From contig NZ_LN929894.1 of NCBI RefSeq assembly GCF_001493375.1, forward strand, positions 424,513 to 488,512: a stretch of DNA of 64,000 nt, written 5' to 3'. Below, one piece after another: positions 5,364 to 21,569 of the stretch (position 1 is the first letter of the stretch; each line of letters begins with the position of its first letter). The DNA comes from Streptomyces specialis (GTDB lineage Bacteria; Actinomycetota; Actinomycetes; Streptomycetales; Streptomycetaceae). The position numbers and the translations under genes are program-made. The notes under the pieces are model-generated. The model was not told where the DNA came from. It did no database searches and saw only the letters and a program-made list of their open reading frames with translations.

Positions 5364-5770
5364 ACGGCCAGAAGCCGGCGAGCGTGCCGATCCTGCGTCT
5401 CGGCGACGTCCTGGTCACCGGCCTGCTCGACGAGCTGGACGACAAGTCGGCCATGGCGTTCCTGGACGAGCTGACCGAGCGGATCGCCGCCGACGCGGCC
5501 ACCGGCGTGCTCATCGACATCTCCCGGCTGGAAATCATCGACTCGTTCGTCGCCCGCACCCTCAGCGAACTCACCACCACCGCACGGCTGCTGGGCGCCC
5601 GCGTCATCGTCGCCGGCATGCGCCCGCCCGTCGCCATCACCCTGGTCGAGCTGGGACTGCGACTCGACGGTGTGGAGACGGCCTTGAACGCGGAGCAGGG
5701 CATGGCCGCCCTCGGCTGGTTCCGCACCACAGTGTCCGGGGAGGGTCCGCACCGTGATGACGCCCCATGA
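5360..5770 (+). CDS. rsbS: RsbS-type STAS anti-anti-sigma / stressosome scaffold
   Basis: A 136-residue single STAS domain. VPILRLGDVLVTGL begins the fold and LIDISRLEIIDSFVARTL holds the conserved Ser expected to be phosphorylated by RsbT. It begins at a GTG overlapping the rsbR stop and overlaps the rsbT start by 17 bp, giving the classical rsbR-rsbS-rsbT order. In the known system RsbS binds RsbT in unstressed cells and releases it after phosphorylation. Length and motifs match the family closely. Confidence 0.9.
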   Translation: MNGQKPASVPILRLGDVLVTGLLDELDDKSAMAFLDELTERIAADAATGVLIDISRLEIIDSFVARTLSELTTTARLLGARVIVAGMRPPVAITLVELGLRLDGVETALNAEQGMAALGWFRTTVSGEGPHRDDAP

Positions 5771-6227: not shown

Positions 6228-6234
6228 CCCGGCC

Positions 6235-7188: not shown

Positions 7189-7353
7189 CGCTGCCGACGA
7201 AGAGGATAGTGTAGTCCTCGGCATCCGTCGCCCACTTTCTACAAACAATGTCTGACGTCCGCCGACCCACTAGCACGACCCCCCCCCCCCCCCCCCCTGC
7301 CGGCGCCGGAGGCGGCGTCGGATGTGTACAAGACCCAGCCCCCCCCCCCCCCC
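7168..7353. other. Nextera adapter-derived assembly artefact (site A)
   Basis: From 7168 the sequence CTGTCTCTTcTACcCATCT is the 19-bp Tn5 mosaic end with two mismatches. The read-1 (i5-side) extension GACGCTGCCGACGA, an index-like AGAGGATA (complement of TATCCTCT) and GTGTAG of the P5 arm follow to 7214. At 7306-7338 a degraded opposite-orientation copy reads GATGTGTAcAAGAccCAG at its end. Poly-C runs at 7279-7297 and 7339-7353 flank it. This is library adapter, not genomic DNA. It breaks the preceding gene. Confidence 0.93.
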
Positions 7354-7433
7354 GCCCTCGCGCACCGGCACCGGGTCGTCCGTGACGACGCCACCGCCCT
7401 GGCCGTCGCGTCCCCGCGCTGAGGCCCGCCGCC

Positions 7434-8738
7434 ATGACGACGACCGACAGCCGGCACTTCCGCGCCCAGGCGGAGCTGCGGCACGCCGTGCGCCAAGTGG
7501 CCCGTACCCACCGCCTTCCGGTCGATCTGCGGGCCCGGCTCGTGGTCTCGGTGACCGCCGTCGCGGGCTCGGCGTTCGCGGCGGGCGCCGCCGTTCACCT
7601 GGAGACCTCGGTGCGGCGGGCCGGTGACGGGCACCCCGGGACGCTCGCCGTGGTCTGCCGCCCGCAGGGCGCCGTGGGGCAGCCCGAGGCGGCCGAGCTG
7701 CCGCTGCCGCCCGAAGTCACCCCGGACGGCGGCGCGGTGTGGCGGGTGCCGCTCCCGCCGCGTCCGGCGGCGCGGACCCTCGGCGGCCCGGCCCGGTCCA
7801 AGGCGGCGCCCGAGGCGGCGCCGGAGACCGAACGGGAGGCGCTGGAGCAGGAGTTGCAGCAGGCGATGGCCCGCGCCGACGCGCTGGCCGCCGACCACCG
7901 GCGGCTGAAGCACGAACTGGCCGAGACGAACAGCGGCGTGCTCGCCCTCTACGTGCAACTGGAGGAGCGGGACGAGCGGTTGCGCCGCGCGCACGGCAAG
8001 ACGCTGCGCGAGCGGGAGGACGCCCTTCGTCCGCCGCCGCTGGACATCGACGGCCTGGAGCTGGCCGTGCACTACGCCCCGGCCGGCACCGACGCCCCCA
8101 CCGGCGGCGACCTCTACGACTGGTTCCGGCTGCCGGACGGCACCGTCCACATCACCGTCGTGGACGCCCTCGGCCACGGCGTCACCAGCACCCGCAGCGC
8201 GCTCAACGTCACCCACGCCGTGCGCACCCTCGCGCTGGAGGGGCACCGGCTGGACTCGATCATCGCCCGCGCCGACGAGGTGATGCGCCCGTTCGACCGG
8301 GACGTGATGGCCACCGTGCAGCTCGTCCGGATCGACCCCGCCACCGGTGAGCTGCTGCTCGCCAACGGCAGCCATCCGCCGGGGCTGTTGATCCGCTCCT
8401 CCGGGGAGCACGCGTACCTGGAGGTCAAGGGCCGGGGCATCGGCTTCCCGCTGCCGGGCAGCGAGAAGCTGCTGCGCGCCACCCTGGCGCCGGGGGACCT
8501 GCTGCTGCTCTACACCGACGGTCTCACCGAGAGCCGCCGCGACCCGCTGGAGGGCGAGGCCCGGCTGATCCGGGCGGCCCGCCGCCACGCGGCCCTGCCC
8601 ATCGCGGACGTCCCGCGCGCCATCGCCCGGGACATGCACACCGTGATCCTCCACCCCGACGACACCCTGGCCCTGGCGCTGCGTCTGCCGCCGGGCCCCG
8701 GCCGTGACCAGCAACCGAACCAGGAGAGTGCGCCATGA
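7434..8738 (+). CDS. RsbU-like PP2C phosphatase with central coiled coil
   Basis: A 434-residue protein. The N-terminal about 110 residues are a degenerate GHKL-like region (RAQAELRHAVRQVARTH). Residues about 120-190 are a Glu/Arg/Leu-rich coiled coil. Residues about 200-420 are a SpoIIE/PP2C domain with intact metal motifs GGDLYDWF, VVDALGHG, LLLLYTDGLTE and HPDDTLAL. It fits the output phosphatase that RsbT would switch on, acting on an anti-anti-sigma factor encoded elsewhere. The ATG is 11 bp after the presumed true end of the previous gene, and its stop overlaps the next ATG by 4 bp, so the sulfotransferase at 8735 is translationally coupled to this signalling operon. Confidence 0.88.
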   Translation: MTTTDSRHFRAQAELRHAVRQVARTHRLPVDLRARLVVSVTAVAGSAFAAGAAVHLETSVRRAGDGHPGTLAVVCRPQGAVGQPEAAELPLPPEVTPDGGAVWRVPLPPRPAARTLGGPARSKAAPEAAPETEREALEQELQQAMARADALAADHRRLKHELAETNSGVLALYVQLEERDERLRRAHGKTLREREDALRPPPLDIDGLELAVHYAPAGTDAPTGGDLYDWFRLPDGTVHITVVDALGHGVTSTRSALNVTHAVRTLALEGHRLDSIIARADEVMRPFDRDVMATVQLVRIDPATGELLLANGSHPPGLLIRSSGEHAYLEVKGRGIGFPLPGSEKLLRATLAPGDLLLLYTDGLTESRRDPLEGEARLIRAARRHAALPIADVPRAIARDMHTVILHPDDTLALALRLPPGPGRDQQPNQESAP

Positions 8739-9691
8739 CCGGCACCGCGAAGCGACCGATCCTCGTCACCGGTCTGCCGCGCAGCGGCACCAGTTGGGTC
8801 GGCAAGATGCTCCAGGCCGGCGGCGAGGTGGTGTACGTCAACGAGCCGCTCAACCCGAGCCGCCCGCCCGGCCGTTCGCCCGGGGTGCTCAACGCGTCGG
8901 TCACGCACGCGTTCCAGTACATCTGCGAGGACAACGAGGAGCCCTGGCTGCGGGCGTTCCGCGACACCGCGCGGCTGCGGTACCACCCGCTCGCCGAGCT
9001 GCGAGCCAACCGGGCGCTGCCCGATCTCGCCCGCCTGGTGAAGAACTTCTCGGCGTTCACCGCCGGACGGGCGCGCGGGCGGCGGGCGCTGCTGGACGAT
9101 CCGTACGCGGTGCTGTCGGCGGCCTGGTTCGCCCGCAGGCTGGGCGCGGTCGCGATCGTGCTGGTCCGCGATCCGGTGACGTGGTCGGGCAGTTGGCGCA
9201 AGCTCGGCTGGACGACGTACTTCCACGAGCTGCTGGAGCAGCCGCTGCTGGCGCGGGACCTGCTGGGCGAGCACGCCGGTGAACTGCGGGCCCTGGTGGG
9301 CAGTCAGGACGAGCTGGCGAAGAACGCGGCGCTGTGGCGTTTCACATACGACGCGGTGGACTCCATGCGGAAGAACACCGAGTCCCTGCACGTCGTGCGG
9401 TACGAGGACCTGGCCGGTGACCCGGAGACCCGTTTCGGCGAGCTGTACGCCACGTGCGGGCTGACGTGGGACGCGTCGGCGCGGCGGGCCGTGCGGGAGG
9501 CGACGCAGGCGGAGAACGCGCCGACGCGGGCGATGTCCTGGAGCCTGAAGGGCGGTCTGTCCCGGACGGCCTATCAGCCGATGGACAGCAAGGCCGCGCT
9601 GGTCACGTACCGGGACCGGCTCGGCGAGGAGGAGATCGCCCGCGTGCGGGAGCTGACGGCGGACGTGCGCGCCCGCTACTACGACGCCTGA
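8735..9691 (+). CDS. Sulfotransferase (first of three)
   Basis: A 318-residue PAPS-dependent sulfotransferase. The 5'-phosphosulfate loop TGLPRSGTSW spans residues about 12-21, and the 3'-phosphate region contains VLVRDPVTWSGSWRKLG. A C-terminal VRYEDLAGDP is typical of carbohydrate/Stf0-like families. It lacks a signal peptide or membrane segment, so it is probably cytoplasmic and would sulfate a sugar nucleotide or lipid-linked glycan. Its ATG overlaps the PP2C stop (ATGA), and its 3' end overlaps the convergent glycosyltransferase by 13 bp. Context assigns it to the polysaccharide locus. The acceptor is unknown. Confidence 0.87.
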   Translation: MTGTAKRPILVTGLPRSGTSWVGKMLQAGGEVVYVNEPLNPSRPPGRSPGVLNASVTHAFQYICEDNEEPWLRAFRDTARLRYHPLAELRANRALPDLARLVKNFSAFTAGRARGRRALLDDPYAVLSAAWFARRLGAVAIVLVRDPVTWSGSWRKLGWTTYFHELLEQPLLARDLLGEHAGELRALVGSQDELAKNAALWRFTYDAVDSMRKNTESLHVVRYEDLAGDPETRFGELYATCGLTWDASARRAVREATQAENAPTRAMSWSLKGGLSRTAYQPMDSKAALVTYRDRLGEEEIARVRELTADVRARYYDA

Positions 9692-10266
9692 CCGCGCCGC
9701 CGCAGCGAGAGCAGCGGCCGGCGCGCGGGCCGGACCATCAGCTCGTCCACGAGGGCGCCGAACCGCCGTACGGTTTCCGGCAGTTCGCTGATCTCCGGCC
9801 GGGCGGCGAATCGTTCGGGGCGTTCCAGGGCGGCCGTCAGCAGGAGCCGGAAGTCGTGCTCGGTGCTCGCGGCCCGGATCAGTCCGGCCTCGTCCAGCCG
9901 CCGGGAGAACCGCACTTGGTGGTCGTCGACGTGCTCGCCCAGTTCCGGGCGGCGGGGCACGACGATGGGGATACGGCCCGCGCCGCGCGCGTCCATGATC
10001 GAGCCGGGGCCGCCCTGGCAGACGACGACCGCCGACTGCCGCAGGGCGGCCTGGAGTTCACCGTGCGGCAGCATCGCGGTGGCCTCGATGCCGGGTGCGG
10101 CGGCCGGTGGCGGCGTGAAGCCGTGCTGCACCGTCCAGTTCAGGGCCGGGCCGTCGGCCTGCCACCGTTCGATCCAGGTCATCAGCCTGGTGAAGTGGTG
10201 GTGGTCGGTGCCGACCGTCACTAGGACGCGGGGGGCCGCGCCGAGTTCGCCGGGCATGGAGGTCAC
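9679..10266 (-). CDS. PssE/Alg13-like glycosyltransferase catalytic subunit
   Basis: A 195-residue protein resembling the UDP-sugar-binding half of two-component glycosyltransferases (Alg13, EpsF/PssE). It starts RVLVTVGTDHHHFTRLMTWIERW. It contains the donor-site region CQGGPGSIMDARGAGRIPIVVPR and DDHQVRFSRRLDEAGLI. Its partner is the gene immediately upstream. I chose GTG 10266, which overlaps that stop by 4 bp; ATG 10257 is the alternative. It would add one sugar to the lipid-linked repeat unit at the inner membrane face. Confidence 0.85.
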   Translation of the reverse strand: MTSMPGELGAAPRVLVTVGTDHHHFTRLMTWIERWQADGPALNWTVQHGFTPPPAAAPGIEATAMLPHGELQAALRQSAVVVCQGGPGSIMDARGAGRIPIVVPRRPELGEHVDDHQVRFSRRLDEAGLIRAASTEHDFRLLLTAALERPERFAARPEISELPETVRRFGALVDELMVRPARRPLLSLRRRGQAS

Positions 10267-10748
10267 ATCACCTTTCCGACCACGACCGAGCCGTCGTACA
10301 ACTCGCGCTGGTCTTCCCACTGGACGAGGAACAGATCGGTCACCGGGCGGCACAGCCGGCCGGTGACGGTCCGGCTGTCGATGCGGTCGAAGACCTCCAG
10401 GTAGGCCGTGCGCGCGCCACGCAGCCTGGCCACCCAGAAGAACGGCACGGCGACGCCGGCGCCCGAGCTGACGACCAGATCGGGCGCGTACCGGGGAACG
10501 AGGCGGAGGGCCAGCCACAGGTTCCGCAGCAGATTGGGGATGTTGCGGGTCGTCGGGTGGTACGCCCAGCGGACATTCTCGCCGTCGAGCAGCGAACGCG
10601 CGTCGGTGGTGTCGAAGGTGACCCACATCCTCTCGTGCCGGGTCCACCAGGGGGCCAGCTTGTGGAGCTGGGCCAGGTGGCCGCCGGCGGAGCAGACGAT
10701 CAGCACCCGCAGGCGCCGTCCGTCCGGGCCGTCCTCGTGCTGGCTCAT
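10263..10748 (-). CDS. PssD/Alg14-like membrane-anchoring glycosyltransferase subunit
   Basis: A 161-residue Alg14/PssD homologue. RVLIVCSAGGHLAQLHKLAPWW opens the Rossmann-like fold, VSSGAGVAVPFFWVARLRGARTAYLEVFDRI is the family signature, and the C-terminus FLVQWEDQRELY matches the docking tail for the Alg13-like subunit. It recruits the catalytic subunit (next gene, 4-bp overlap) to the membrane. Its ATG overlaps the upstream sulfotransferase stop by 4 bp, so sulfotransferase, PssD-like and PssE-like proteins are made from one coupled operon. Confidence 0.87.
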   Translation of the reverse strand: MSQHEDGPDGRRLRVLIVCSAGGHLAQLHKLAPWWTRHERMWVTFDTTDARSLLDGENVRWAYHPTTRNIPNLLRNLWLALRLVPRYAPDLVVSSGAGVAVPFFWVARLRGARTAYLEVFDRIDSRTVTGRLCRPVTDLFLVQWEDQRELYDGSVVVGKVM

Positions 10749-11698
10749 CGGGTGGTTCGCCCCCTGAGTCGGTAGCCGTAGCGGAGCATGCCGGGCGCGG
10801 TGAGCGCGGTGACGACGGCCCGGTCGCCGGGGGGCATCGCGGACCGCCAGGCGTCGTCCACGCGCAGCGGGACCGGGCCGTTGGTGAAGCGCATCGGGTT
10901 GCCGGAGACGCTGTGTTCGGCCGACAGCCGCAGCCCCGCCTCCTGGACGAAGTCGAGGTCGCCGGGCTTCAGTTCGCGCCCGGCGAGGGCGGCCACGCGG
11001 GTGAGGGCGGCGGCCGGGTCGGCGACGAACCGCTCGTAGCGCAGGCCCAGGGCGTTCCGGTGCACCAGCCGCAGGACGTCGAACAGGCCGTTGAACGCGG
11101 ACCAGCGGGCCGCCAGCCTGGGGACCGGGATGTTCGCCATGTAGGCGTCCTGGTCCACGACTTCGGGCCGCTTGACCTTCTTCGCCCAGGAGTGGGCCAC
11201 GCCCCGGCTGTCGCGGGTGACGTGCAGCAGCCGCAGATCGACGGACGGGACCCGGCGGAGGGTGGCGGCGTAGGAGACGTGCTTGGAGGAGTCGACCACG
11301 ACCGCGCAGCCGCTGACCTCCTGGATCGCGGTGTAGAGCCGGCCGAGGAGCGCGGTCAGCTCGCCGAGTCTGAGCCGGAAGTCGCGGCCCGGGTCGGGGG
11401 TCAGGAGCCGGGGCAGGTAGCGGGTGCGGTCCACCGCGTGCTGGAGCGCGGTGACCCGGGCGGGTTCCGCCGCCTCCCAGCCGCCGAACGCCCGCTTCCC
11501 GACGTCCGACCAGAACGGGCAGTCCAGGAACCGGGCGCCGCAGCCGCACAGTTCGTTGCGGGTGGCGCCGCGGGACCACAGGAACACGAGTTCACCGACG
11601 TGGAAGAAGCCGGGCAGCTCGCCGAGGGCGCGGGAGAGAACGGTACTCCCGCTGCGGCCCACTCCTCCGATGTAGAGAACGCGGACGGGTTCGACCAT
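10745..11698 (-). CDS. Sulfotransferase (second of three)
   Basis: A 317-residue sulfotransferase with the PAPS loop GGVGRSGSTVLSRALG (residues about 11-26). A Cys-rich loop NELCGCGARFLDCPFW is seen in many actinobacterial polysaccharide sulfotransferases. The 3'-phosphate region is VVDSSKHVSYAATLRR with HVTRDSRGVAHSW, and LRYERFVADP follows. ATG 11698 is the first gene of a three-gene minus-strand operon with the PssD/PssE pair. That linkage argues for glycan sulfation rather than small-molecule metabolism. Confidence 0.88.
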   Translation of the reverse strand: MVEPVRVLYIGGVGRSGSTVLSRALGELPGFFHVGELVFLWSRGATRNELCGCGARFLDCPFWSDVGKRAFGGWEAAEPARVTALQHAVDRTRYLPRLLTPDPGRDFRLRLGELTALLGRLYTAIQEVSGCAVVVDSSKHVSYAATLRRVPSVDLRLLHVTRDSRGVAHSWAKKVKRPEVVDQDAYMANIPVPRLAARWSAFNGLFDVLRLVHRNALGLRYERFVADPAAALTRVAALAGRELKPGDLDFVQEAGLRLSAEHSVSGNPMRFTNGPVPLRVDDAWRSAMPPGDRAVVTALTAPGMLRYGYRLRGRTTR

Positions 11699-11953
11699 GC
11701 GCAGAAGTCTCGGGGTGCCACGAAGTATTAACCAGTATTACAGCCGTAAGAACACATAATTGATGCATGTGTGGATGGACTGAAACCGGGAAATGCCGTC
11801 CCGCCGGATTCCGTACCGATCCCGGAAATACGGCGGGGCCCCTCGCGCGGACCCGTCGCACGAGCCACTATGCTGCCCCCCCCGGCCCGGACCCGATCCA
11901 CGAGACTCCACGAGACTCCATAAGGCTCCACGAAACGACGAGCGAGGGATTCC
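11699..11953. promoter_or_regulatory. Divergent intergenic region between sulfotransferase operon and flippase
   Basis: A 255-bp region with an AT-rich core (11725-11770, including AAGTATTAACCAGTATTAC) from which the minus operon and the flippase probably initiate. Short repeats of CGAGACTCCA occur near 11899-11919. I cannot assign specific operators or -10/-35 boxes. Confidence 0.45.
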
Positions 11954-13636
11954 GTGACCGCCCCCACCGCCTCGACCCCCTCGACCAGTCGTTGCTCAGC
12001 ACTGTTTCTGCCTCTGTCGTACTTCACGTGCTTGCTATTGTGGAGTTCCCTTCCGCTCCCCGCCGGCTGCGGACGACTGGCCGACAGATCCGGGACGGCG
12101 GGCGGGACCCGCGCCGTGGCGCGGAGCGGCGCGCTGGGACTGTTCGGCGCGGGGGTGGCCGCCGTCGGCGGCTTCACGCTGACCGCCGTGGTCACGCACG
12201 GTCTCGGCGCGGCCGGCGCGGGCGTCTTCTTCGAGGCGTTCGCGCTCTTCACGATTCTCGCCGCCATCGGCACGGCCGGCGCCGACACCGGGCTCCTCTA
12301 CACCGCCACGCGCAGCCGCGCGCTGGGCCGCGTCGCCGAGCTGCGCCGGGTCATGGCGGTCGCCTTCGGCCCGGTCGTGCTCGCGGCGACCGTGCTGGCC
12401 GTCTCCCTGTACGCCGCCGCGCCCGGCCTGGCCGGGCTGCTGATGGACGAGGCCCACCGCGACCAGGGCGCGGACCAACTGGCCCTGCTGGCGCCCTTCC
12501 TGGTGTGCGCGATCACCGGCCTGGTCGCGGTCCAGGCCACGCGCGGCTTCGGCGGCCTGCGGATCTACGTGGGGCTCCAGCAACTCGCCCTGCCGCTGGG
12601 CCGGGTGGCCCTGGTCGCCGCCGTGCTGGCGTTCGGCGCGCGGGGGTTGGCGGTGCCGCTGGCGTGGGCGATCCCGCTGCTGCTGACCTGCCCGCTGGCC
12701 CTGTGGGCGCTGTACGGACAACTCCGGCGCACCGAACGGGCCCTGCTGCCCGCCTCCGCCCCGGCGCGCCCGGTGCGGGAGATCGCGCGGGAGTTCTGGT
12801 CGTACGCGGCCGGGCGGGGGTTCGCGCAGGCGTTCACGCAGTCGATCGTCTGGTTCGACGTGATCATCGTCGGCGCGATGCGCTCGGCCCACGAGGCCGG
12901 GATCTACGCCGCCGCCAGCCGGTTCGTCACCACGGGCACGCTGGCGATGCAGGCGATGCGGCTGGCGATCCAGCCGCAGGTGGGCGCGGCGCTGGCGGTC
13001 GGCGACAAGCGCCGGGCGGAGGACCTCTACCGGGTCTCCACGCAGTGGATCACCGCCTCCTCCTGGCCGCTCTACCTGGTGCTGGCGACGTTCGGCCCGC
13101 AGGTGCTGCGGGTGTTCGGCGAGGAGTTCGCGGACGGCGCCGACGCGTTGAGCGTCCTGTCGGTGGCGATGCTGCTCAACCTGGCGACCGGGAACGTCAA
13201 CACGGTCCTGCTGATGGCGGGCAAGAGCCGCTGGACGGCGGTCAACACCGTGGTGGCCCTGGTGGTGAACATCGGGCTCAACCTGCTGCTCGTTCCCGGG
13301 CACGGCATCGTCGGCGCGGCGATCGCGTGGTCAGCGAGCATCGTGTGCGAGCAACTGATGGGCATGTACGAGGTCCGCGTCCTGCTGGCCCTGCGCGGGC
13401 ACGGCCGCGGCTTCGCCGTATCGGCGGCGATGGCGGCCCTGGTCTTCGGCGGCGGCGGCCTGGCCCTGCGCCTGGCCCTGGGCACGGACCTGTGGGTCCT
13501 CGCCCTCTACCTCGCGCTGGCGGTCCCGCTCTACGCGGCGGCGCTGTGGCGTTTCCGCACCGTCCTCGAACTCCCCGCCCTGCTCTCGGCGGTCGGCAGA
13601 CGCCGCCCCGGGCGCCACGCCCGCACCACCGGCTGA
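11954..13636 (+). CDS. Wzx-type polysaccharide flippase
   Basis: A 560-residue multi-spanning membrane protein of the MATE/MVF-like flippase superfamily (PST family), with 12 or more hydrophobic segments (examples: GLFGAGVAAVGGFTLTAVV, VALVAAVLAFGARGLAVPLA, TAVNTVVALVVNIGLNLLLV). It would move the undecaprenyl-linked repeat unit to the outer face. GTG 11954 has a GCGAGGG site 6-7 nt upstream. Residues 1-54 are Ser/Pro/Cys-rich and use atypical codons, so GTG 12116 may be the real start. Confidence 0.85.
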   Translation: MTAPTASTPSTSRCSALFLPLSYFTCLLLWSSLPLPAGCGRLADRSGTAGGTRAVARSGALGLFGAGVAAVGGFTLTAVVTHGLGAAGAGVFFEAFALFTILAAIGTAGADTGLLYTATRSRALGRVAELRRVMAVAFGPVVLAATVLAVSLYAAAPGLAGLLMDEAHRDQGADQLALLAPFLVCAITGLVAVQATRGFGGLRIYVGLQQLALPLGRVALVAAVLAFGARGLAVPLAWAIPLLLTCPLALWALYGQLRRTERALLPASAPARPVREIAREFWSYAAGRGFAQAFTQSIVWFDVIIVGAMRSAHEAGIYAAASRFVTTGTLAMQAMRLAIQPQVGAALAVGDKRRAEDLYRVSTQWITASSWPLYLVLATFGPQVLRVFGEEFADGADALSVLSVAMLLNLATGNVNTVLLMAGKSRWTAVNTVVALVVNIGLNLLLVPGHGIVGAAIAWSASIVCEQLMGMYEVRVLLALRGHGRGFAVSAAMAALVFGGGGLALRLALGTDLWVLALYLALAVPLYAAALWRFRTVLELPALLSAVGRRRPGRHARTTG

Positions 13637-13667
13637 GGCGCCACCGGCCGGGGGGCTGTGGGGCTGA

Positions 13668-13694
13668 GGGGCGCGCCGGCCGTCGGCGCGCCCC
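13668..13694. terminator. Bidirectional terminator between flippase and Wzz-like gene
   Basis: GGGGCGCGCCG (13668-13678) pairs perfectly with CGGCGCGCCCC (13684-13694) around a 5-nt loop, placed between two convergent stop codons. Confidence 0.8.
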
Positions 13695-13701
13695 CGGCCG
13701 T

Positions 13702-15204
13702 TCAGACGCGGGTGTGCCGGGCCGTGGAGGCGCCGGCCGGCACCACCAGGGCACAGCCCGCGACCGGGGTGTCCAGCCGTTCCAGGGCCGTGGCCAGGGC
13801 TTCCACGTCGGCCGTGTCCGTCTCCCGGGACTGGGCCACGATCACGGCCGCGCCCGCCGTGCCCGCCAGGGTGACGACCTCCGAACGGGTCAGGCCGCCC
13901 GACGCGTCCAGCACCACCCAGGTGCCCGCGGCGGTCAGTTCGGACACCAGCGCGCGGAACTCCTCGCCCGCGATCAGCTCCCGCGGGACCCCGTCGGCCG
14001 CGTCGCCGTGCGCCACCCGCAGACCGGCGACGCCCGTGGTGTGCAGGGTGACCTTCGCGGTGCCGCCGGCCGCCGCCAGGGGAGCGAGCGCGGGGGCCGG
14101 CGCCCCGGTCCGGCCCGGGCTGAGCAGGACCACGTCGCCCAGCGCCTCGGCCAGCGCGGTCGCCAGGTTGGCGCCGGGCAGCGCGCGGGGGGCCGGTCCG
14201 GTGAGGTCGGCGACCAGCAGCACGCGCGTGCCGCGCCGCCGCAGGGCGGGCACCAGCAGCGCGCGCAGCAGGCGGTAGGACTCGGCGGCCGGCCCGGCCG
14301 GGTCCTCGACCAGCGCCAACGCGGCCGGCCCGGCCGGGATCTCGGCCAGCAGCGGCGCCCCGGCCGCCTCGGCCGCCTCGCGTCCGCCGGACACCCGCCC
14401 GTCGAACCGGTCGCGCGCGAAGGCCGCCGCCAGCCCCAGGATCAGCGCCGCGAGGACACCCCCGCCCAGGAACAGCGGATCGCCGGCGGGGGACGCGGCC
14501 ACCGCCCGGTCCGCCTCCTCCAGCACCGAGCCGGGCATGAACGAGCCCGCCCGCAGGTCGTTCCGCCGGTCGGACAGGCCCTGGACGTCCCGCAGCGCCA
14601 CCTGCCGGTCGGTGTCGGCCGCGCGCGCCTGGGCCGAGTCCGCCGCCGCCGACGCCAGCGCCTCCTCGGCGGCGGGCAGCGCGGCCCGCGCCTCGTCCAG
14701 CGACTCCGTCAGCCCGCGCAGCAACTCCTCCTGCCTCGCCCGCCCCTGGGCCTCCCGGTGCGCGAGGTAGGCGGTGGCGAGGGCGTTGGCGCCGTCGATC
14801 GCCGCCTGCCGGGAGGCGGCGTCGTAGGTGAGGCGGAGCGTCGCGGTGTCGGCGGACGGCGTCACCGTCAGGTGGGAGCGCAGCGCGTCCGGTTCCCGCC
14901 CGCCCGCCAGCGACTCGGCGGCCAGCGCGGCGACTTCGGAGGAGCGCGCGATCTGGGCCTCGCTCTGCGTGTTCACGAGCTGGTCGGGCGTCTTGCCCGA
15001 CTCGAAGGGGTTCGTCCCGATCGGGTCGACGCGCACCACGGTCGTCGCCTCGTACGACGACGGCGCCAGCGCCGCGTAGCCCGCGACCCCGGAGACCCCG
15101 GCCAGGGCCACGGCGAGCACCGTGCGCCACCGGCGCCGGGGCACCTCGCCGTAGCGCCTCACATCGACGGACCGCACATCAGCCGTGCCACTGGTGCCAC
15201 TCAT
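13702..15204 (-). CDS. Wzz/chain-length co-polymerase with a degenerate tyrosine-kinase-like domain
   Basis: A 500-residue inner-membrane protein. A transmembrane helix at about 27-48 is followed by the Wzz signature SYEATTVVRVDP, a coiled-coil periplasmic-type region (about 130-225), a second helix at about 243-262 and a cytoplasmic Rossmann-like domain (about 275-495). The fold resembles CpsD/CapB bacterial tyrosine kinases fused to Wzz. The position of Walker A reads LVADLTGPAPRALPGANL with no GK(S/T), and no C-terminal Tyr cluster is present, so kinase activity is unlikely. It probably controls chain length with the polymerase at 16492. Confidence 0.82.
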   Translation of the reverse strand: MSGTSGTADVRSVDVRRYGEVPRRRWRTVLAVALAGVSGVAGYAALAPSSYEATTVVRVDPIGTNPFESGKTPDQLVNTQSEAQIARSSEVAALAAESLAGGREPDALRSHLTVTPSADTATLRLTYDAASRQAAIDGANALATAYLAHREAQGRARQEELLRGLTESLDEARAALPAAEEALASAAADSAQARAADTDRQVALRDVQGLSDRRNDLRAGSFMPGSVLEEADRAVAASPAGDPLFLGGGVLAALILGLAAAFARDRFDGRVSGGREAAEAAGAPLLAEIPAGPAALALVEDPAGPAAESYRLLRALLVPALRRRGTRVLLVADLTGPAPRALPGANLATALAEALGDVVLLSPGRTGAPAPALAPLAAAGGTAKVTLHTTGVAGLRVAHGDAADGVPRELIAGEEFRALVSELTAAGTWVVLDASGGLTRSEVVTLAGTAGAAVIVAQSRETDTADVEALATALERLDTPVAGCALVVPAGASTARHTRV

Positions 15205-15532
15205 GAGAACCTTTGCTCGCGCTTTGCTTGCATATCGACAACTGAGTACTCCGGCCGCCCCGGACGGTGCCGGAACGATCCGCTGGGGCGTTCCGGCGGA
15301 GATCGCGTGAATACCGTGTGCGCCCTGGAAAATGTGATCACCGCGTTAACAACTCCGCGTCGGGGAAAGCGTGGTGTATCGCCTTCCGGGCGAATACCCC
15401 TCTCCAACGCCAATGATCCGGATGATAATCTCACCGCCTTGGTCTCTGGCAAGTAATGGAGACGTGTAACCGGCGAAGCTCAAGCCGGAGGCCCGGAAAC
15501 CGCAAGCGTCCGGCAAGCGATGAGGTCACACC
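15205..15532. promoter_or_regulatory. Divergent promoter region between Wzz-like and GT2 operons
   Basis: A 328-bp gap of lower GC. The last about 90 bp before the GT2 start (15450-15525) can fold into adjacent short hairpins (for example CCGGC at 15471-15475 with GCCGG at 15485-15489), so a structured leader is possible. I do not recognise it as a known riboswitch class. No open frame here is supported. Confidence 0.45.
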
Positions 15533-16492
15533 ATGAGCGAGAGCGCCGTGGCACCGGAATCCCCGGCGGCGACGACCAGGCCCGCCCCCACCGTCAGCGT
15601 CGTGGTCCCCACCCGGGACCGCCCCGAACTGCTGCGCCGGGCGGTCACCGCCATCCTGGGCCAGCGCTACGCCGGCCCCGTCGAATGCGTCGTGGTCTTC
15701 GACCGCAGCGACCCCGTCCCGGTGGACGTGCCCACCGGCGACGGCCGCACCCTGCGGTACCTGCGCAACGACCGCACCCCGGGCCTGGCCGGCGCCCGCA
15801 ACACCGGCATCCTCGCCGCCACCGGCGAACTCGTCGCGTTCTGCGACGACGACGACGAGTGGCTGCCCGGAAAGCTCGCCTCCCAGACCGAGTTGCTCGA
15901 ACGCCACCCCGAAACCCCGCTGGTCTCCGCCGGGATCATCGTCAGCTACGGCGACCGCGACATCCCCCGGCCGGCCCCCGACCGGCCGCTGTGGCGCGCC
16001 GACTTCCTGCGCGACCGGATCATGGAGATCCACCCCAGCACCGTCCTCGTCCGCCGCGCCGCCCTCCTCGACCGCATCGGGCTGGTGGACGAGGAGATCC
16101 CCGGCGGGTACGGCGAGGACTACGAGTTCCTGCTGCGCGCCGCCGACGCCGGTGGCGTCCGCGCCGTGCGCGAACCGCTGGTCCGCGTCCTGTGGCACGC
16201 CCGGTCGTACTTCTTCGACCGCTGGCAGATGATCATCTCCGCGCTGGACTACCTGCTGGACAAGCACCCCGACTTCCGCACCGATCCCGTGGGCCTGGCC
16301 CGCATCGAGGCCCAACTCGCCTTCGCCCACGCCGGACTCGGCGACATGCCGGGCGCCCGCCGCCTGGCCGTCCGCGCCTTCCGGCACAACTGGCGCGAAC
16401 AGCGGCTCTACGCCGCCCTGCTGGCCAGCACCCGCCTGGTGAAGGTCGACACCATCGTCACCCTCGCGCACCGCGCCGGCCGAGGGATCTGA
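15533..16492 (+). CDS. Family 2 glycosyltransferase
   Basis: A 319-residue GT2 enzyme. TVSVVVPTRDRPELLRRAV starts the GT-A fold, VAFCDDDDEWLPGKL carries the DxD metal/nucleotide-sugar motif, and GGYGEDYEFLLRA is the acceptor/catalytic ED motif. There are no membrane helices; it should act at the cytoplasmic membrane face, adding a sugar to the lipid-linked unit. It begins at ATG 15533 with a weak GATGAGG site upstream. Its stop overlaps the polymerase start (TGATG). Confidence 0.92.
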   Translation: MSESAVAPESPAATTRPAPTVSVVVPTRDRPELLRRAVTAILGQRYAGPVECVVVFDRSDPVPVDVPTGDGRTLRYLRNDRTPGLAGARNTGILAATGELVAFCDDDDEWLPGKLASQTELLERHPETPLVSAGIIVSYGDRDIPRPAPDRPLWRADFLRDRIMEIHPSTVLVRRAALLDRIGLVDEEIPGGYGEDYEFLLRAADAGGVRAVREPLVRVLWHARSYFFDRWQMIISALDYLLDKHPDFRTDPVGLARIEAQLAFAHAGLGDMPGARRLAVRAFRHNWREQRLYAALLASTRLVKVDTIVTLAHRAGRGI

Positions 16493-17781
16493 TGCCCGCC
16501 TCCCTCCCGCGGTGGCCGATGTACGCGCTGTTCGTCGCGTTCCCGCTCTGGTGGACCCTCGGCCTCGGCGACATGATCTGGCCGCTGGTCGCCCTCCCCA
16601 TGACGGTGCTGCTGCTGCGCCGGCGCCGGTTGCGCGCCCCCAGGGGCTTCGGGCTGTGGCTGCTGTTCCTGGTCTGGATGTTCGCCTCGGCCGTCCAGAT
16701 CGACACCGGCGGCCGGATGATCGGCTTCGTCTACCGCGCGCTGATCTACCTCGCCGCCACCGTCATCTTCCTGTACGTCTACAACGGCACCGAACGCGAC
16801 CTGCCCGCGCGCCGCGTCGCCCTCGTCCTCACCGCCTACTGGGCCGCCGTCGTCGCCGGCGGCTACCTCGGCGTGCTGTCCCCCCACGGCTCGCTCCACA
16901 CGCCCATGGCGGCCCTCGTGCCGGAGGGCCTCCAGAGCAACGAACTGGTCGCCCACATGGTCAACCCCCGCTTCACCCAGGGAGATCCGGACGGCTTCTG
17001 GCAGAACGAACCGCGCCCGTCCGCCCCGTTCGCCTACACCAACGGCTGGGGACACAACTACGCCGAGCTGATCCCGTTCGTGCTCGTCGCCCTCGCCCAC
17101 CTGCGGCGCGGCCCGTTGTTCCGGCTCGTCCTGGTGCTGCTGCCGCTCTCCCTCGTCCCGGCCTATCTCACCGTCAACCGCGGCATGTTCCTGGCCCTCG
17201 GCCTCGGTCTGGGCTACGCCGCGCTCCGCATGGCGGCGCGCGGCAACGCCAAGGGCCTGCTCGGGCTCGGCGCTCTCCTCGTCGCCGCGCTCGGCGTCAA
17301 CACCGCCATCGGCGTGCAGGACCGCGTCGCCGACCGCGTCTCCAACAGCGACACCAACGAGACCCGGCTCGCCGTCTACCAGGAGGCGTACGAACGCACC
17401 CTGGAATCCCCGCTGTTCGGATACGGCGCGCCCCGCCCGTCACTGCTCGGCGAGGCCGTCCCCTCGGTGGGCACCCAGGGGCAGTTCTGGAACGTGCTCT
17501 TCTCGCACGGATTCGTCGGCGCCGCCCTGTTCCTCGGCTGGTTCGGGTGGCTGTGCTGGCGCACCCGGCGCGCCCCCACCGGCACCGCGCTGTGGACCCA
17601 TGTCGTCGTCGTGATGACGACGGTGATGATCTTCTACTACGGCCTGATGGACTCCGGCCTGGTCATCGTGATGATCGCCGGCGCGCTCGCCCTCCGCGAG
17701 GCCGAACGCCATCCACCCGTCCGGCCCAGAGCCGCGCCGCTGCTCGCCACCGCGAAGGAGCCCGCCCCGGCTCCCGCCTGA
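16492..17781 (+). CDS. O-antigen ligase/polymerase-like (Wzy) membrane protein
   Basis: A 429-residue polytopic protein with about 10-12 hydrophobic segments. A long extracytoplasmic loop (PHGSLHTPMAALVPEGLQSNELV to NGWGHNYAELIPF) precedes a Wzy_C-like region, and ETRLAVYQEAYERTLESPLFGYGAPRPS is the conserved motif of this superfamily. It would polymerise flipped repeat units. It is translationally coupled to the GT2 gene. Wzy proteins diverge strongly in sequence, so the assignment as polymerase rather than ligase comes from context: a flippase, a Wzz-like protein and no core lipid. Confidence 0.87.
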   Translation: MPASLPRWPMYALFVAFPLWWTLGLGDMIWPLVALPMTVLLLRRRRLRAPRGFGLWLLFLVWMFASAVQIDTGGRMIGFVYRALIYLAATVIFLYVYNGTERDLPARRVALVLTAYWAAVVAGGYLGVLSPHGSLHTPMAALVPEGLQSNELVAHMVNPRFTQGDPDGFWQNEPRPSAPFAYTNGWGHNYAELIPFVLVALAHLRRGPLFRLVLVLLPLSLVPAYLTVNRGMFLALGLGLGYAALRMAARGNAKGLLGLGALLVAALGVNTAIGVQDRVADRVSNSDTNETRLAVYQEAYERTLESPLFGYGAPRPSLLGEAVPSVGTQGQFWNVLFSHGFVGAALFLGWFGWLCWRTRRAPTGTALWTHVVVVMTTVMIFYYGLMDSGLVIVMIAGALALREAERHPPVRPRAAPLLATAKEPAPAPA

Positions 17782-17813
17782 AACCCCCACGACCCGTAAG
17801 GACATCCCCGGTC

Positions 17814-18863
17814 ATGAGCCAACCCGTGCCCGCGCGCCGGACGGCGCGCCGCCGCCGATGGCGTGCCCTGGCCACCGCCGCGCTCGGCCTCCTCACCCTC
17901 AGCGCCTCCACCCTCCCCGCACCGGCCGCCGAACCCGCCGCCGCCTGCCCGCTCGACGAGAACCTCGTCCCCGAATGCGGCCTGCTGTGGGGGATCTACA
18001 CCACCGCGGCCGAACGCGGCGACGACCTTCAGGCCACGATCACCAGCATCGAGTCCGACATCGGCCGCACCTTCGACATCGTCCACCGCTACCACGACTT
18101 CTCCGGCACCGGCGCCTCCGGCGTCTTCCCCGACGAGCAGGAACAACGGCTCGCCGCCGACGGCGACCGCCTCCTTCTCCTCAACTGGACGACCCGCGTC
18201 CACGGTGAGGACGAACGCGCCCGGTGGAGCGACGTCGCCGACGGCGCCTACGACGACGAGATCGTCCGGCCCGCCGCCCAGCGGCTCAAGGAGTGGGACC
18301 AGCCCGTCTTCCTGGCCTTCGACCACGAGGCCGAGGGCAAGCGCGACGCGGACCAGGGCGACGGTGCCGACTACGTGCGCGCCTGGCGCCACATCCACGA
18401 CGTCTTCGAGGAGGAGGGCGTCGACAACGTCACCTGGGTGTGGGTCTCCGTCGGCTGGCTCGGCCACGAGGACGTCATCGAGGAGTTCTACCCCGGCGAC
18501 GCCTACGTCGACTGGATCGGCTACGACCCCTTCAACTACTACGACTGCCGGGACAACGACTGGCGCACCCCCGGCGAGACCATCGGCCCCTGGTACGAGT
18601 GGCTGATGGACAACGGCTTCTCCGACAAGCCGGTCATGCTCGCCGAGTACGGCACCGTCGCCGACCCGGAGAACGACCAGGCGCAGGCCCAGTGGTACCG
18701 CAACCTCGTGCCCGCGCTCACCAAGTACCCCAACATCAGGGCCGTCAGCGTCTTCGACACCTTCAAGGTCTGCGACACCCGCGTGTCCCACAAGCCCGGC
18801 GTCCTCGACGCCTGGGGCGACGCCGGGCGCGACCCGTACATCCTGCCTCTTATACCCATCTGA
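17814..18863 (+). CDS. Secreted GH26-like glycoside hydrolase (3' end truncated by adapter)
   Basis: The readable part is about 345 residues. An Arg-rich n-region and hydrophobic segment end at APAAEPAAA, a classical signal peptide. The mature domain resembles GH26 (beta-mannanase-like) enzymes: VFLAFDHEAEG gives the acid/base Glu, WVWVSVGWLG and WIGYDPFNYY line the barrel, and PVMLAEYGT supplies the nucleophile Glu. The final residues ILPLIPI derive from adapter starting at 18843, so the C-terminus is missing or misassembled. It sits between polymerase and initiating transferase and may trim or release the polymer. Confidence 0.82.
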   Translation: MSQPVPARRTARRRRWRALATAALGLLTLSASTLPAPAAEPAAACPLDENLVPECGLLWGIYTTAAERGDDLQATITSIESDIGRTFDIVHRYHDFSGTGASGVFPDEQEQRLAADGDRLLLLNWTTRVHGEDERARWSDVADGAYDDEIVRPAAQRLKEWDQPVFLAFDHEAEGKRDADQGDGADYVRAWRHIHDVFEEEGVDNVTWVWVSVGWLGHEDVIEEFYPGDAYVDWIGYDPFNYYDCRDNDWRTPGETIGPWYEWLMDNGFSDKPVMLAEYGTVADPENDQAQAQWYRNLVPALTKYPNIRAVSVFDTFKVCDTRVSHKPGVLDAWGDAGRDPYILPLIPI

Positions 18864-18998
18864 CGCTGCCGCCCACGCGACTAATGTTCAACCTACATGT
18901 AACGCATTCTCTAGAGTAACCCTAACTCATTACGCAGCGCCCACCTACGTCAACCCGCTCCTCCGCGCCGACAGCGTCCTATGTGTATACGCACCCCC
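18843..18998. other. Nextera adapter-derived assembly artefact (site B)
   Basis: 18843-18871 reads CTGcCTCTTATACcCATCT followed by GACGCTGCCG, the mosaic end plus read-1-side extension. About 110 bp of low-complexity, lower-GC sequence follows. Near 18969-18998 a degraded reverse copy (CAGCGTC, then ATGTGTATAc) leads into a C-rich stretch. It truncates the GH26-like gene and abuts the ribosome-binding site of the next gene. Confidence 0.9.
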
Positions 18999-19045
18999 AC
19001 CCGCTCCACCCTCCGCCCACAAGGAGAGTCCGTCATGAAGTCCCC

Positions 19046-20665
19046 ATGCCCGTACGCCCGTTCCTGTCAGCGCCCCGTCCGGGTACCGCGGTCGCGCCGC
19101 CGCCCGGCCGGGGCCCGTTCCACGGCGACAGTGCACATATGATGTCCCGCGGCCCACGACAGGGCGCCCTGCCCCTGCCCGTTCTCCCGATCCCGGCCGG
19201 GCGGCCCGGCCCGTCGCGCGCCGGCGTCGCGCGGGGGAGGGGCGCCGCCAGGACGCAGCGCTGGAAGCGCCGTTACACCGTGCTCCTCCTCGGCGCCGAC
19301 GCGGGCGTCGCCGTCATCGCCGGAGCGGCGGCCTCTGCGGCCCGGTTCGGCGGCTTCGGCAGCGGAATCGGCACCGGCTACCTCCTGTTCAGTGTCACCG
19401 TCTTCCCCCTCGCGTGGATCGTCGCGCTCGCGCTGAGCCGCGCCTACGACCACCGTTTCCTGTTCATCGGACCCGACGAGTACCAGCGCACGCTGATCGC
19501 GGGCGTCGCGCTCACCGCCGCCGTCGCCGTCGTCTCCTACGCCGCCAAGCTGGAGATCGCCCGCGGCTACGTCGCCCTGGCGCTGCCGGGCGCCCTCCTG
19601 CTCGACCTGCTGTGCCGCTTCGCCGCCCGCAAGTGGGTCCACCGGCACCGGGCGGAGTCGTCCCGCTTCATGCAACGGGTCGTCGCCGTCGGCTACGAGC
19701 AGTCGATCGCCGTGCTCGCCACGGAACTTCACCGCCACCGCTACCACGGCATGCGCGTCGTCGGAGCCTGCCTGCCCCCGCACCGGCCCTACCGGCGGCG
19801 GATCGGGGACTGCGACATCCCGGTCCTCGGAAGGTTCGCCGACATCGCCGAGGCGGTGGAACGCGCCAACGCCGACACCGTGGCCGTGCTGTCCTGCCCG
19901 GAGTTGCAGGGCCACGAACTGCGGCGCCTCGCCTGGGAACTGGAGGAGAGCGAGGTCGATCTGCTGGTCGCGCCCGCGCTGATCGACGTCGCCGGACCGC
20001 GCACCACGATCCGCCCGGTGGACGGCCTTCCGCTGGTCCACGTCGACCGCCCGTCGCTGTCCGGCGGGCGCCGGGCGGCCAAGGAGCTGATCGACCGCGC
20101 CGGCGCCGCGCTCGCGCTCGTCGTCCTCGCGCCGCTGCTGCTCGTCATCGGCGCCGCGATCCGCCTCACCAGCCCGGGGCCCGCGCTCTTCCGGCAGACC
20201 CGGGTCGGGAAGGACGGGGTGCCGTTCCGGCTGCTGAAGTTCCGCACCATGTACGTCGAGGCGGAGGCGCGCGTCGCGGAACTGCGGGCGGCCAACGGCC
20301 ACGACGGCGTGCTGTTCAAGCTCCGTGACGACCCGCGCGTCACCCCGCTGGGCAGAACGCTGCGCCGCTACTCCCTGGACGAACTCCCGCAGTTGGTCAA
20401 CGTCCTGGCCGGCCGCATGTCCCTGGTCGGCCCCCGCCCGCCCCTGCCCGACGAAGTCGCGCGGTATCCCAGCGACATGTACCGCCGCCTGGTGGTGAAA
20501 CCGGGCATGACGGGCCTGTGGCAGGTCAGCGGCCGGTCCGACCTGTCCTGGGACGAGTCCGTCCGCATCGACCTGCGCTACGTCGAGAACTGGTCCCTCG
20601 CCCTGGACGCCATGATCCTGTGGCGCACCGTGTTCGCGGTCCTGCGCTCCCGGGGCGCGTACTAG
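19046..20665 (+). CDS. Polyprenyl-phosphate glycosyl-1-phosphate transferase (WbaP/CpsE-like)
   Basis: A 539-residue initiating transferase. Four or five N-terminal transmembrane helices (about 75-180), a CoA-binding-like central region, then the bacterial sugar transferase domain from about 345 to the end: SPGPALFRQTRVGKDG, LKFRTMY, RRYSLDELPQLVNVLAGRMSLVGPRPPLPDEV and KPGMTGLWQVSGRS. It attaches the first sugar-phosphate to undecaprenyl phosphate. AAGGAGAG (19020-19027) is ideally spaced for ATG 19035, which is out of frame by one base, so a sequencing indel beside artefact B is likely and the true N-terminus may be MKSP-type. Confidence 0.9.
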   Translation: MPVRPFLSAPRPGTAVAPPPGRGPFHGDSAHMMSRGPRQGALPLPVLPIPAGRPGPSRAGVARGRGAARTQRWKRRYTVLLLGADAGVAVIAGAAASAARFGGFGSGIGTGYLLFSVTVFPLAWIVALALSRAYDHRFLFIGPDEYQRTLIAGVALTAAVAVVSYAAKLEIARGYVALALPGALLLDLLCRFAARKWVHRHRAESSRFMQRVVAVGYEQSIAVLATELHRHRYHGMRVVGACLPPHRPYRRRIGDCDIPVLGRFADIAEAVERANADTVAVLSCPELQGHELRRLAWELEESEVDLLVAPALIDVAGPRTTIRPVDGLPLVHVDRPSLSGGRRAAKELIDRAGAALALVVLAPLLLVIGAAIRLTSPGPALFRQTRVGKDGVPFRLLKFRTMYVEAEARVAELRAANGHDGVLFKLRDDPRVTPLGRTLRRYSLDELPQLVNVLAGRMSLVGPRPPLPDEVARYPSDMYRRLVVKPGMTGLWQVSGRSDLSWDESVRIDLRYVENWSLALDAMILWRTVFAVLRSRGAY

Positions 20666-20719
20666 CCGGACTCCGCTCCGCCGCCGCCCGATTCCCGCGC
20701 GGCGGCGGCGCGGAGCCGG
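20666..20719. terminator. Convergent terminator hairpin
   Basis: A GC-rich imperfect inverted repeat (arms around 20675-20689 and 20699-20715, GCTCCG-CCGCCGCC against its complement with one bulge) separates the convergent transferase and sulfotransferase genes. Confidence 0.65.
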
Positions 20720-20723
20720 GGCG

Positions 20724-21569
20724 TCAGGAGGCGGGTCGCGGAAGGAGGCCCGCCGGGGGAACGCGGTCGATGTCCCGCAGGCTGTAGCCGTAGGCGTTGG
20801 CCCGGTCCTCGAAACGCTCGCACAGCCGGCGGAACCGGCGGCGGCCGAACGGGTCGGTGGCCTCGGCCAGTTCGAGCCAGCGCTCCCGGTAGCCGCCGCT
20901 GCGGTCCCGCACCGCGCCCGCCGGGATCGGGCCCGACAGGCCCAGGAACTCCCGCACGCCGTCCAGCGTCCGCTCCGGACTGGTCACCAGGCTCTCGTAG
21001 GTGAGCAGATGCAGGTGCTCCACGCGCGCCGCGTCCTGCCGCAGCAGATCGTGCGCCCGGAACCAGTTCTCGAAGAGCGTGGAAAGGCGGGTGCGCGGCG
21101 CCCACTTCTTCGTCGACAGTGTCACGATCGCCGGGTGCCGCATGATGACGATGAAACGCGCCTCGGGGAAAAGCTTCTGGAGGAACCGCGTCATGACGAG
21201 ATTCGCGGGAGATTTCTCCACCAGGAATTCACGGTCCATGTCCCAGTAGCGGCTCCAATCGGCGATCAGCCGCTCCCGGTTGGCGGGATCGGCCAGGGGT
21301 GAATTCTCCGTGATGTGGGCCGCCGGCGAAAGGGCGAACCGGCCGGGCCCCGAGCGCGTCCGGGCCGCCGCCGTCGGGTAGACCGACTGGAGGTACTGGC
21401 CCTCGTCCTCCATGGCGCCCGTGTCGTGGAAGCCGCTGACCTGCGGATGCCCGGCCAGCGTACGGGCCAGCGGCGTGGTCCCGCTGCGGTGCAGGCCCCC
21501 TATGAACACGAACCGCTGCCCGGGGCGCGGCACTTGTCCTGACGCCGTGTCTGTCATGGGATCGGTCAC
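20724..21569 (-). CDS. Sulfotransferase (third of three)
   Basis: A 281-residue PAPS-dependent sulfotransferase. The 5'-phosphosulfate loop is GGLHRSGTTPLARTL (residues about 24-38), the acceptor-side block is EFLVEKSPANLVMTRFLQKLFPEARFI, and the 3'-phosphate site is IVIMRHPAIVTLSTKKW. The C-terminus LCERFEDRANAYGYSL is typical of glycan sulfotransferases. It has its own upstream region and is separated from ectD by a strong terminator. It lies convergent to the initiating transferase at the right edge of the polysaccharide locus. Confidence 0.88.
   Translation of the reverse strand: MTDPMTDTASGQVPRPGQRFVFIGGLHRSGTTPLARTLAGHPQVSGFHDTGAMEDEGQYLQSVYPTAAARTRSGPGRFALSPAAHITENSPLADPANRERLIADWSRYWDMDREFLVEKSPANLVMTRFLQKLFPEARFIVIMRHPAIVTLSTKKWAPRTRLSTLFENWFRAHDLLRQDAARVEHLHLLTYESLVTSPERTLDGVREFLGLSGPIPAGAVRDRSGGYRERWLELAEATDPFGRRRFRRLCERFEDRANAYGYSLRDIDRVPPAGLLPRPAS

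Follow-up and report, generated by a model that had tools for sequence, protein, structure and literature searches.

We identified, in a 64,000-nucleotide stretch of the Streptomyces specialis genome (here the window; contig NZ_LN929894.1, positions 424,513 to 488,512), a 13-kb locus of 11 genes (8735-21569) that combines a complete Wzx/Wzy set with a glycoside hydrolase of family 26 (GH26) and three sulfotransferases, termed ST1, ST2, and ST3. Its gene content appears best explained by Wzx/Wzy-dependent synthesis of an extracellular polysaccharide that is also sulfated, a prediction to which we assign a probability of about 0.68. The three enzymes are not equally firm candidates for polymer sulfation: a role for ST2 is likely, one for ST1 is plausible, and one for ST3 is possible. 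The locus is a rare Streptomyces member of an actinobacterial family that includes the wps-1 locus of Actinoplanes missouriensis and is a variant without WpsH, WpsI, and local genes for the synthesis of 3'-phosphoadenosine 5'-phosphosulfate (PAPS).

Each of the 11 genes has a positive coding-frame score, an intact reading frame, and a Pfam match above the gathering cut-off. Thus, the initiating transferase, family 2 glycosyltransferase (GT2), PssD/PssE pair, flippase, polymerase, Wzz-like protein, and hydrolase that an original prediction, made from the letters alone, had placed here are all present. The same holds for its three PAPS-dependent sulfotransferases, which pass their Pfam cut-offs with intact motifs. 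Their 5'-phosphosulfate loops read GLPRSGTS, GVGRSGST, and GLHRSGTT in ST1, ST2, and ST3, respectively, and all three possess an R-x7-S motif (in ST1, GLPRSGTSW and RDPVTWSGS); we take these two elements to be the PAPS-binding motifs of sulfotransferases. Since three of the five Sulfotransfer_3 matches in the whole 5.88-Mb genome fall within this 13-kb locus, a chance pile-up is unlikely. One of the other two, on contig C139 (L213, 9754-12346), lies two genes upstream of a group-1 glycosyltransferase; the neighbors of the other, on contig C143, include nothing recognized by reading as polysaccharide genes. As judged from coordinates, ST2 is the first gene of a minus-strand ST2-PssD-PssE operon, and the prediction that a sulfotransferase sits in a coupled operon with PssD/PssE is right because ST2/PssD and PssD/PssE overlap by 4 bp each. 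GT2, Wzy, and GH26 form a plus-strand operon that is followed by the gene for the initiating polyprenyl-phosphate sugar transferase (PGT), and Wzx and Wzz stand alone.

The evidence that links ST2 to the polymer comes mainly from related loci. Using GH26 as a marker (found in 64 of 296 genomes of the class at an E value of 1e-15, and taken from the best 80 of at least 543 named loci), we collected 100 GH26 neighborhoods, or 98 after two duplicate contigs were dropped, and labeled their genes with iterative jackhmmer profiles. Genes outside the window were called with our own GC-frame scorer, so that their starts are approximate, and labels were checked on representatives with Pfam (sulfotransferases, the APH-like WpsI, the WecG-type GT26, and the methyltransferase) or NCBIfam (Cys proteins). 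At least one sulfotransferase is found in 33 of the 36 loci that have a window-type Wzy versus 5 of the 62 that do not, and cysD/cysN/cysQ or a gene coding for a sulfurylase/adenosine 5'-phosphosulfate (APS) kinase is found in 25/36 versus 3/62. Fisher tests of these associations give P values of 2e-17 and 9e-12, respectively, which are descriptive only because the loci are related rather than independent (L064 to L067 even share one genome). The five Wzy-negative, sulfotransferase-positive loci (L083, L097, L136, L140, and L145) may be cut loci, since their stretches span only 5 to 16 kb. The Wzx and Wzy of the window are homologous to those of the related loci, and counts among the 36 are 33 for WpsH, 33 for WpsI, 19 for ST2, one for ST1 (L149), and none for ST3. 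The presence of ST2 in 19 of 36 homologous polysaccharide loci, often with sulfate-activation genes, favors a role for it in polymer sulfation, and a chance neighborhood of unrelated sulfotransferases is rejected in its case.

A second sample, chosen without reference to GH26 from surveys of the genus and the phylum, was centered on ST2, homologues of which occur in 62 of 296 genomes of the phylum (that of the window counted). Across its 20 regions from 17 genomes, Wzx is found in 15 and within three genes of ST2 in 11, and PGT is found in 8; the regions without Wzx are those of four other Streptomyces genomes and L193. A search for the gene set in other genomes, proposed with the original prediction, retrieved related loci with both Wzy and a sulfotransferase in 16 named actinobacterial genera, namely, 15 counted by hand (Micromonospora, Kineosporia, Marinactinospora, Nocardiopsis, Streptosporangium, Paractinoplanes, Symbioplanes, Actinoallomurus, Pilimelia, Pseudosporangium, Nocardioides, Couchioplanes, Thermomonospora, Phytomonospora, and Mangrovihabitans) plus Nonomuraea. 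ST2 is borne by Marinactinospora, Nocardiopsis, Streptosporangium, Symbioplanes, Nocardioides, Phytomonospora, and Nonomuraea. A motif pattern applied to the homologues was matched by 26/45 for ST2, 29/45 for WpsH, 5/9 for ST1, and 1/2 for ST3; the pattern is too strict and is affected by truncated gene calls, and it was not used as evidence.

Several arrangements recur among the related loci (ARRANGEMENTS). In Nocardiopsis and Marinactinospora, PGT-CysQ-CysD-CysN-ST2-GH26 faces GT2-PssD/E-Wzx-WpsH-WpsI-Wzy-Wzz, some of the loci having small insertions. Actinoplanes-like Micromonosporaceae have GH26-methyltransferase-Wzx-WpsH-WpsI-Wzy-Wzz-Sat, with ST2, GT2, and GT26 nearby in L152. In Micromonospora (L084, L089, and L093), GH26 is followed by Wzz-Wzy-Wzx-WpsH-WpsI-PssD, and neither ST2 nor PAPS genes were found within the stretch. 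The Nonomuraea gerenzanensis locus (L222, 2882-19854), which was found by tblastn of ST1, runs Sat, an unlabeled gene, GH26, Wzz, Wzy, WpsI, WpsH, Wzx, ST1, GT26, GT2, ST2, CysN, CysD, CysQ, and PGT. It is the fullest version seen; its record, NZ_LT559118.1, is filed as a plasmid and has 10 annotated features in 11.85 Mb. In representatives, CysD and CysN score above their NCBIfam cut-offs and CysQ scores below (113 of 229). The "Sat" proteins pass as APS kinases with a weak sulfurylase part: that of L160 is above the Pfam ATP-sulfurylase cut-off and below that of NCBIfam sopT, and in that of L222, no sulfurylase part was found with Pfam or NCBIfam.

The closest parallel to the window outside these surveys is wps-1 (AMIS_7280-AMIS_7380), which was described and mutated in June 2026 (PMC13390465). 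Because wps-1 has the same core, the earlier statement that no characterized locus of this content was known no longer holds. Going by its description, wps-1 shares with the window Wzx/Wzy/Wzz, GT2, GH26, and sulfotransferases, and in the window, too, GH26 lies beside Wzx, Wzy, Wzz, and GT2. It has two sulfotransferases, and an ATP sulfurylase/APS kinase, absent from the window, is encoded next to it. It also differs in having GT26 (WpsC), a methyltransferase (WpsF), WpsH, and the kinase-like WpsI; features of the window in turn are PssD/PssE, an initiating transferase, ST1, and ST3. Its gene order is matched by loci in Paractinoplanes, Symbioplanes, and other Micromonosporaceae; in Symbioplanes L152, the ST2, Wzx, Wzz, GT2, Wzy, and GH26 of the window find matches at 27 to 47% identity, with ST2 at 47%. 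From gene order alone, WpsB is taken as the counterpart of ST2. The authors propose a sulfated extracellular polysaccharide and state that its sulfation awaits verification (PMC13390465). Single deletions, except that of wpsD, impaired sporangium formation or spore release, and this includes loss of either sulfotransferase or of the sulfurylase/APS-kinase gene: deletion of wpsH gave squashed sporangia, that of wpsB was milder, and that of the adjacent sulfurylase/APS-kinase gene was severe (PMC13390465). A term search of the remaining text retrieved no discussion of homologues (PMC13390465).

Two other systems resemble the window. The xss (synechan) cluster of Synechocystis PCC 6803 likewise combines the Wzx/Wzy route with sulfotransferases, here two from different subfamilies, and its exopolysaccharide is reported to be sulfated; this cyanobacterial likeness is one of gene content only (PMC8205485). 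The capsule cluster of Vibrio sp. KMM 8419, likened here by description only, also has sulfotransferases and PAPS synthesis genes among polysaccharide genes, and its capsule structure, with a 3-sulfated rhamnose, has been solved; it differs in being Gram negative and in using an ABC-transporter route (PMC11641403). This marine Vibrio is a counterexample to two papers in which cyanobacteria are named as the only bacteria known to make sulfated polysaccharides (PMC8205485, PMC13390465). Exopolysaccharide of Streptomyces strain OF1 was found to contain sulfate by turbidimetry (PMC9911575), and that of Streptomyces NRCG4 had 0.0% sulfate (PMC10317929); the passages on these polymers give no genes. 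In searches of open PMC papers, no title or abstract opening among those listed described a Streptomyces locus like the present one.

The case for ST1 comes from two relatives, both 57% identical to it and both inside homologous loci, in Streptosporangium amethystogenes (L149) and N. gerenzanensis (L222). Both loci share ST2, Wzx, Wzy, Wzz, GT2, and GH26 with the window, and L222 also shares PGT; they differ from it in having WpsH, WpsI, GT26, and an APS-kinase protein (L222 also CysD/N/Q) and in lacking ST3. PssD/PssE, which the window has, are labeled in neither stretch, that of L149 ending at the ST2 side. On these two loci only, a chance neighborhood is rejected for ST1. For ST3, it is still plausible: the locus family yields only weak matches to it, 40 bits at best. 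The candidate sulfated exopolysaccharide of the original prediction is partly supported, with ST2 likely and ST1 plausible as its sulfotransferases, while no homologous locus supports a role of ST3 in the polymer.

Relatives of ST3 are found in 19 plasmid records (37 to 43% identical among the 10 matches listed), mostly from marine Alphaproteobacteria and in part from Tolypothrix and Pseudoalteromonas. All five examined lie among carbohydrate genes, four near a HAD-IIB hydrolase and at least two glycosyltransferases (L223, L224, L226, and L227, from marine Alphaproteobacteria), where no polymerase is annotated, and one in an ABC-transporter polysaccharide cluster. The context of the four may be a pointer to sulfated small glycosides. 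Together with the position of ST3, which follows ectD at a distance of 111 bp in the same orientation, and with its weak matches in the locus family, this context leaves a serious possibility, somewhat below even odds, that only ST2 and perhaps ST1 modify the polymer and that ST3 is an ectoine-operon gene that sulfates a small glycoside or other osmolyte and neighbors the polysaccharide genes by chance. No terminator-like site was listed in the ectD-ST3 gap, a weak negative given that the scan found 2 sites where 3.0 are expected by chance. Speaking against this proposal are the carbohydrate-gene setting of all five relatives, one of them in a polysaccharide cluster, and the absence of an ST3 match (E value of 1e-15) after the ectoine operon in 10 related Streptomyces regions (one extending only 1.9 kb beyond ectD), which indicates that ST3 does not regularly accompany that operon. 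As to ST2, the proposal is compatible with a sulfated Wzx/Wzy polysaccharide.

Several observations weigh against a sulfated Wzx/Wzy polysaccharide. The strongest association in the family is with a protein that the window lacks: all 33 sulfotransferase-positive Wzy loci carry WpsH, so that the figure of 33/36 rests on a sulfotransferase missing from the window, where the WpsH profile retrieves only ST3, at 34 bits, and WpsI was not found. A WpsH encoded elsewhere in the genome was considered and rejected, as the Sulfotransfer_3 proteins of contigs C139 and C143 match it at 27 bits or less. PAPS synthesis genes, the presence of which in the cluster is a stated hallmark of sulfated polysaccharide clusters (PMC11641403), were not found within the locus. 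ST1 is limited to one of the 36 Wzy-positive loci plus L222, ST3 is in none, and three of these loci (L068, L086, and the short contig L091) have no sulfotransferase label. In wps-1, deletion of wpsB left sporangia of normal shape and lowered spore release about tenfold (PMC13390465). Finally, the four other Streptomyces genomes with ST2 relatives (37 to 40% identical) have neither Wzx nor Wzy there, and in at least L188 and L190, these relatives are near cysC/D/N; therefore, the ST2 family alone leaves the substrate unfixed.

Some of these gaps could mean that the locus was imported only in part and no longer works in sulfation, yielding an unsulfated polymer or no polymer at all; linked PAPS genes, GT26 (WpsC), and the methyltransferase (WpsF) are missing along with WpsH and WpsI, no match to GT26 or the methyltransferase being found within the window's first 40 kb. 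We regard this as unlikely given the intact reading frames, the retained sulfotransferase motifs, and Glu172 and Glu278 of GH26, which are invariant across 16 aligned relatives and which we take to be the catalytic glutamates. PAPS synthesis genes are moreover on the chromosome, where contig C142 has CysC, CysD, and CysN beside a PAPS-reductase-family protein, a predicted PAPS supply within the same genome. The Streptomyces relatives of ST2 without Wzx/Wzy could also be taken to mean that the sulfotransferases act on a lipid, a peptide, or a small molecule and are mere neighbors of the polysaccharide genes. The predicted model of ST2 (pLDDT of 93.5) has a sulfotransferase fold that matches tyrosylprotein sulfotransferases first in the PDB (TM score of about 0.56), followed by olefin-synthase and curacin sulfotransferase domains, and a sequence search of solved structures retrieved human tyrosylprotein sulfotransferases for ST3 (4e-8), one weak match for ST1, and none for ST2. 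Fold similarity at this level does not identify the acceptor of ST2, and we consider action on such substrates improbable in view of the overlap of ST2 with PssD, its presence in 19 of 36 Wzy-positive loci and its proximity to Wzx in the second sample, and the position of ST1 within L149 and L222.

Within its genus, the locus is rare. Wzy was found (E value of 1e-10) in 1 of 392 genomes, that of the window itself; ST1 and ST3 (1e-15) were found in 1 of 150 each, and ST2 (1e-5) was found in 5 of 150. Only limited first-look candidates were scored in these searches (four per genome for Wzy), and distant copies could therefore escape them. Named Streptomyces are likewise not among the Wzy-positive loci. 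The surroundings of ectABCD in the 10 related Streptomyces regions, which extend only 1.9 kb beyond ectD in L185 and about 9 kb in L186, have no match to locus genes at an E value of 1e-15. This absence and the rarity in the genus argue for acquisition of the locus. A donor was not found; in the Wzy tree, the long branches of the window, L065, Kineosporia, and two others meet in an open fork. Base composition was tried as a clue to origin and is not informative (GC content of 0.726 versus 0.742 in the rest of the window). Common Streptomyces GH26 loci (L095 and L139) have Wzx-like and GT2-like genes beside GH26; they were rejected as the same system since they have no gene labeled as sulfotransferase, window-type Wzy, or PAPS supply. 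A stretch of another genome of the genus (G544, L071) is 95.6% identical over 4.8 kb to L139, a named Streptomyces locus, which points to Streptomyces as the genus.

For a sulfated Wzx/Wzy polysaccharide, we infer the following order of steps from the predicted functions. PGT would start the repeat by loading a sugar phosphate onto the lipid carrier, and PssD/PssE and GT2 would add probably one sugar each, yielding a trisaccharide repeat if judged by the number of transferases. ST2, probably ST1, and possibly ST3 would transfer sulfate from PAPS, supplied by the chromosomal cysC/cysD/cysN outside the locus, to the repeat while it is lipid linked and still in the cytoplasm. Wzx would then flip the repeat, Wzy would polymerize it, and the Wzz-like protein would set the chain length, with the secreted GH26 enzyme trimming or releasing the polymer. 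Ester sulfate is thus a predicted feature of polymers of this actinobacterial family. The spread of the family over 16 named genera, with sulfate-activation genes in 25 of the 36 Wzy-positive loci, makes sulfation in the phylum directly testable in culturable strains, among them Nocardiopsis, Nonomuraea, and Streptomyces, and it offers new carbohydrate-sulfotransferase candidates for engineering. Features of the locus and the basis of their assignment are collected in Table 1.

Table 1. Genes of the predicted polysaccharide sulfation locus (coordinates within the window)
Feature	Coordinates	Strand	Basis
ST1, PAPS sulfotransferase	8735..9691	+	Pfam Sulfotransfer_3/1; Sulfotransfer_3 53.2 bits (cut-off 27)
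PssE, presumed catalytic half of two-subunit glycosyltransferase	9679..10266	-	Pfam Glyco_tran_28_C; NCBIfam WelK, PssE below cut-off
PssD, Alg14-like partner of PssE	10263..10748	-	Pfam Alg14; NCBIfam PssD 107.2 bits (cut-off 110)
ST2, PAPS sulfotransferase	10745..11698	-	Pfam 30.6 bits; motifs; model; relatives in polysaccharide loci elsewhere
Wzx flippase	11954..13636	+	Pfam MatE above cut-off, Polysacc_synt below; homologous to related-locus flippases
Wzz-like co-polymerase	13702..15204	-	Pfam Wzz 27.4 bits (cut-off 25.5); NCBIfam BY-kinase partial matches
GT2 glycosyltransferase	15533..16492	+	Pfam Glycos_transf_2
Wzy polymerase (O-antigen ligase-like)	16492..17781	+	Pfam Wzy_C; tree
GH26 glycoside hydrolase	17814..18863 (start about 17814)	+	Pfam GH26 31.3 bits (cut-off 20.2)
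PGT, initiating polyprenyl-phosphate sugar transferase	18983..20665 (start uncertain)	+	NCBIfam TIGR03025; Pfam Bac_transf
ST3, PAPS sulfotransferase	20724..21569	-	Pfam 94.9 bits; motifs; plasmid relatives

PGT scores 408.8 bits against TIGR03025 (cut-off of 295.6), and PssE scores 49.7 bits against the NCBIfam PssE model (strict cut-off of 120), WelK being the better match. The start of Wzx is uncertain, with 12116 being possible. The N terminus of GH26 has a stretch that resembles a signal peptide as judged by eye. The Wzz-like protein has two hydrophobic segments by simple hydropathy and a tyrosine-kinase-like C-terminal part, yet a Walker A pattern was not found in it; the pattern is missing from 38 of 40 Wzz-like proteins longer than 400 amino acids, that of the window included.

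The start of ST1 overlaps by 4 bp the stop of the upstream PP2C gene (7434-8738), the last gene of a stressosome-like operon (4485-8738) coding for an RsbR-type protein, a STAS protein, an RsbT-like ATPase, and two PP2C/SpoIIE proteins. In five stretches from four genomes with that PP2C (L217 to L221), each extending about 1.5 kb beyond the PP2C gene, no ST1 match was found at an E value of 1e-8. Adjoining the ectoine operon, 25355-26605 codes for a putative secreted (by eye), Gly/Asp-rich repetitive protein, for which no Pfam match was found at an E value of 0.1. One may speculate, with low probability, that actinobacteria in general make sulfated Wzx/Wzy polysaccharides, which would then be no specialty of cyanobacteria, and that in this Streptomyces sulfation is wired to the salt and stress response, one sulfotransferase being translationally coupled to the stressosome operon and another following the ectoine operon. 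If so, the degree of matrix sulfation would vary with osmotic stress, given these positions of ST1 and ST3. In another Streptomyces (L188, 2121-18291), a stressosome module like that of the window, named like its neighbors by reading and profile, lies about 4 kb from a cluster with cysC-cysD-cysN and an ST2-like gene without Wzx/Wzy.

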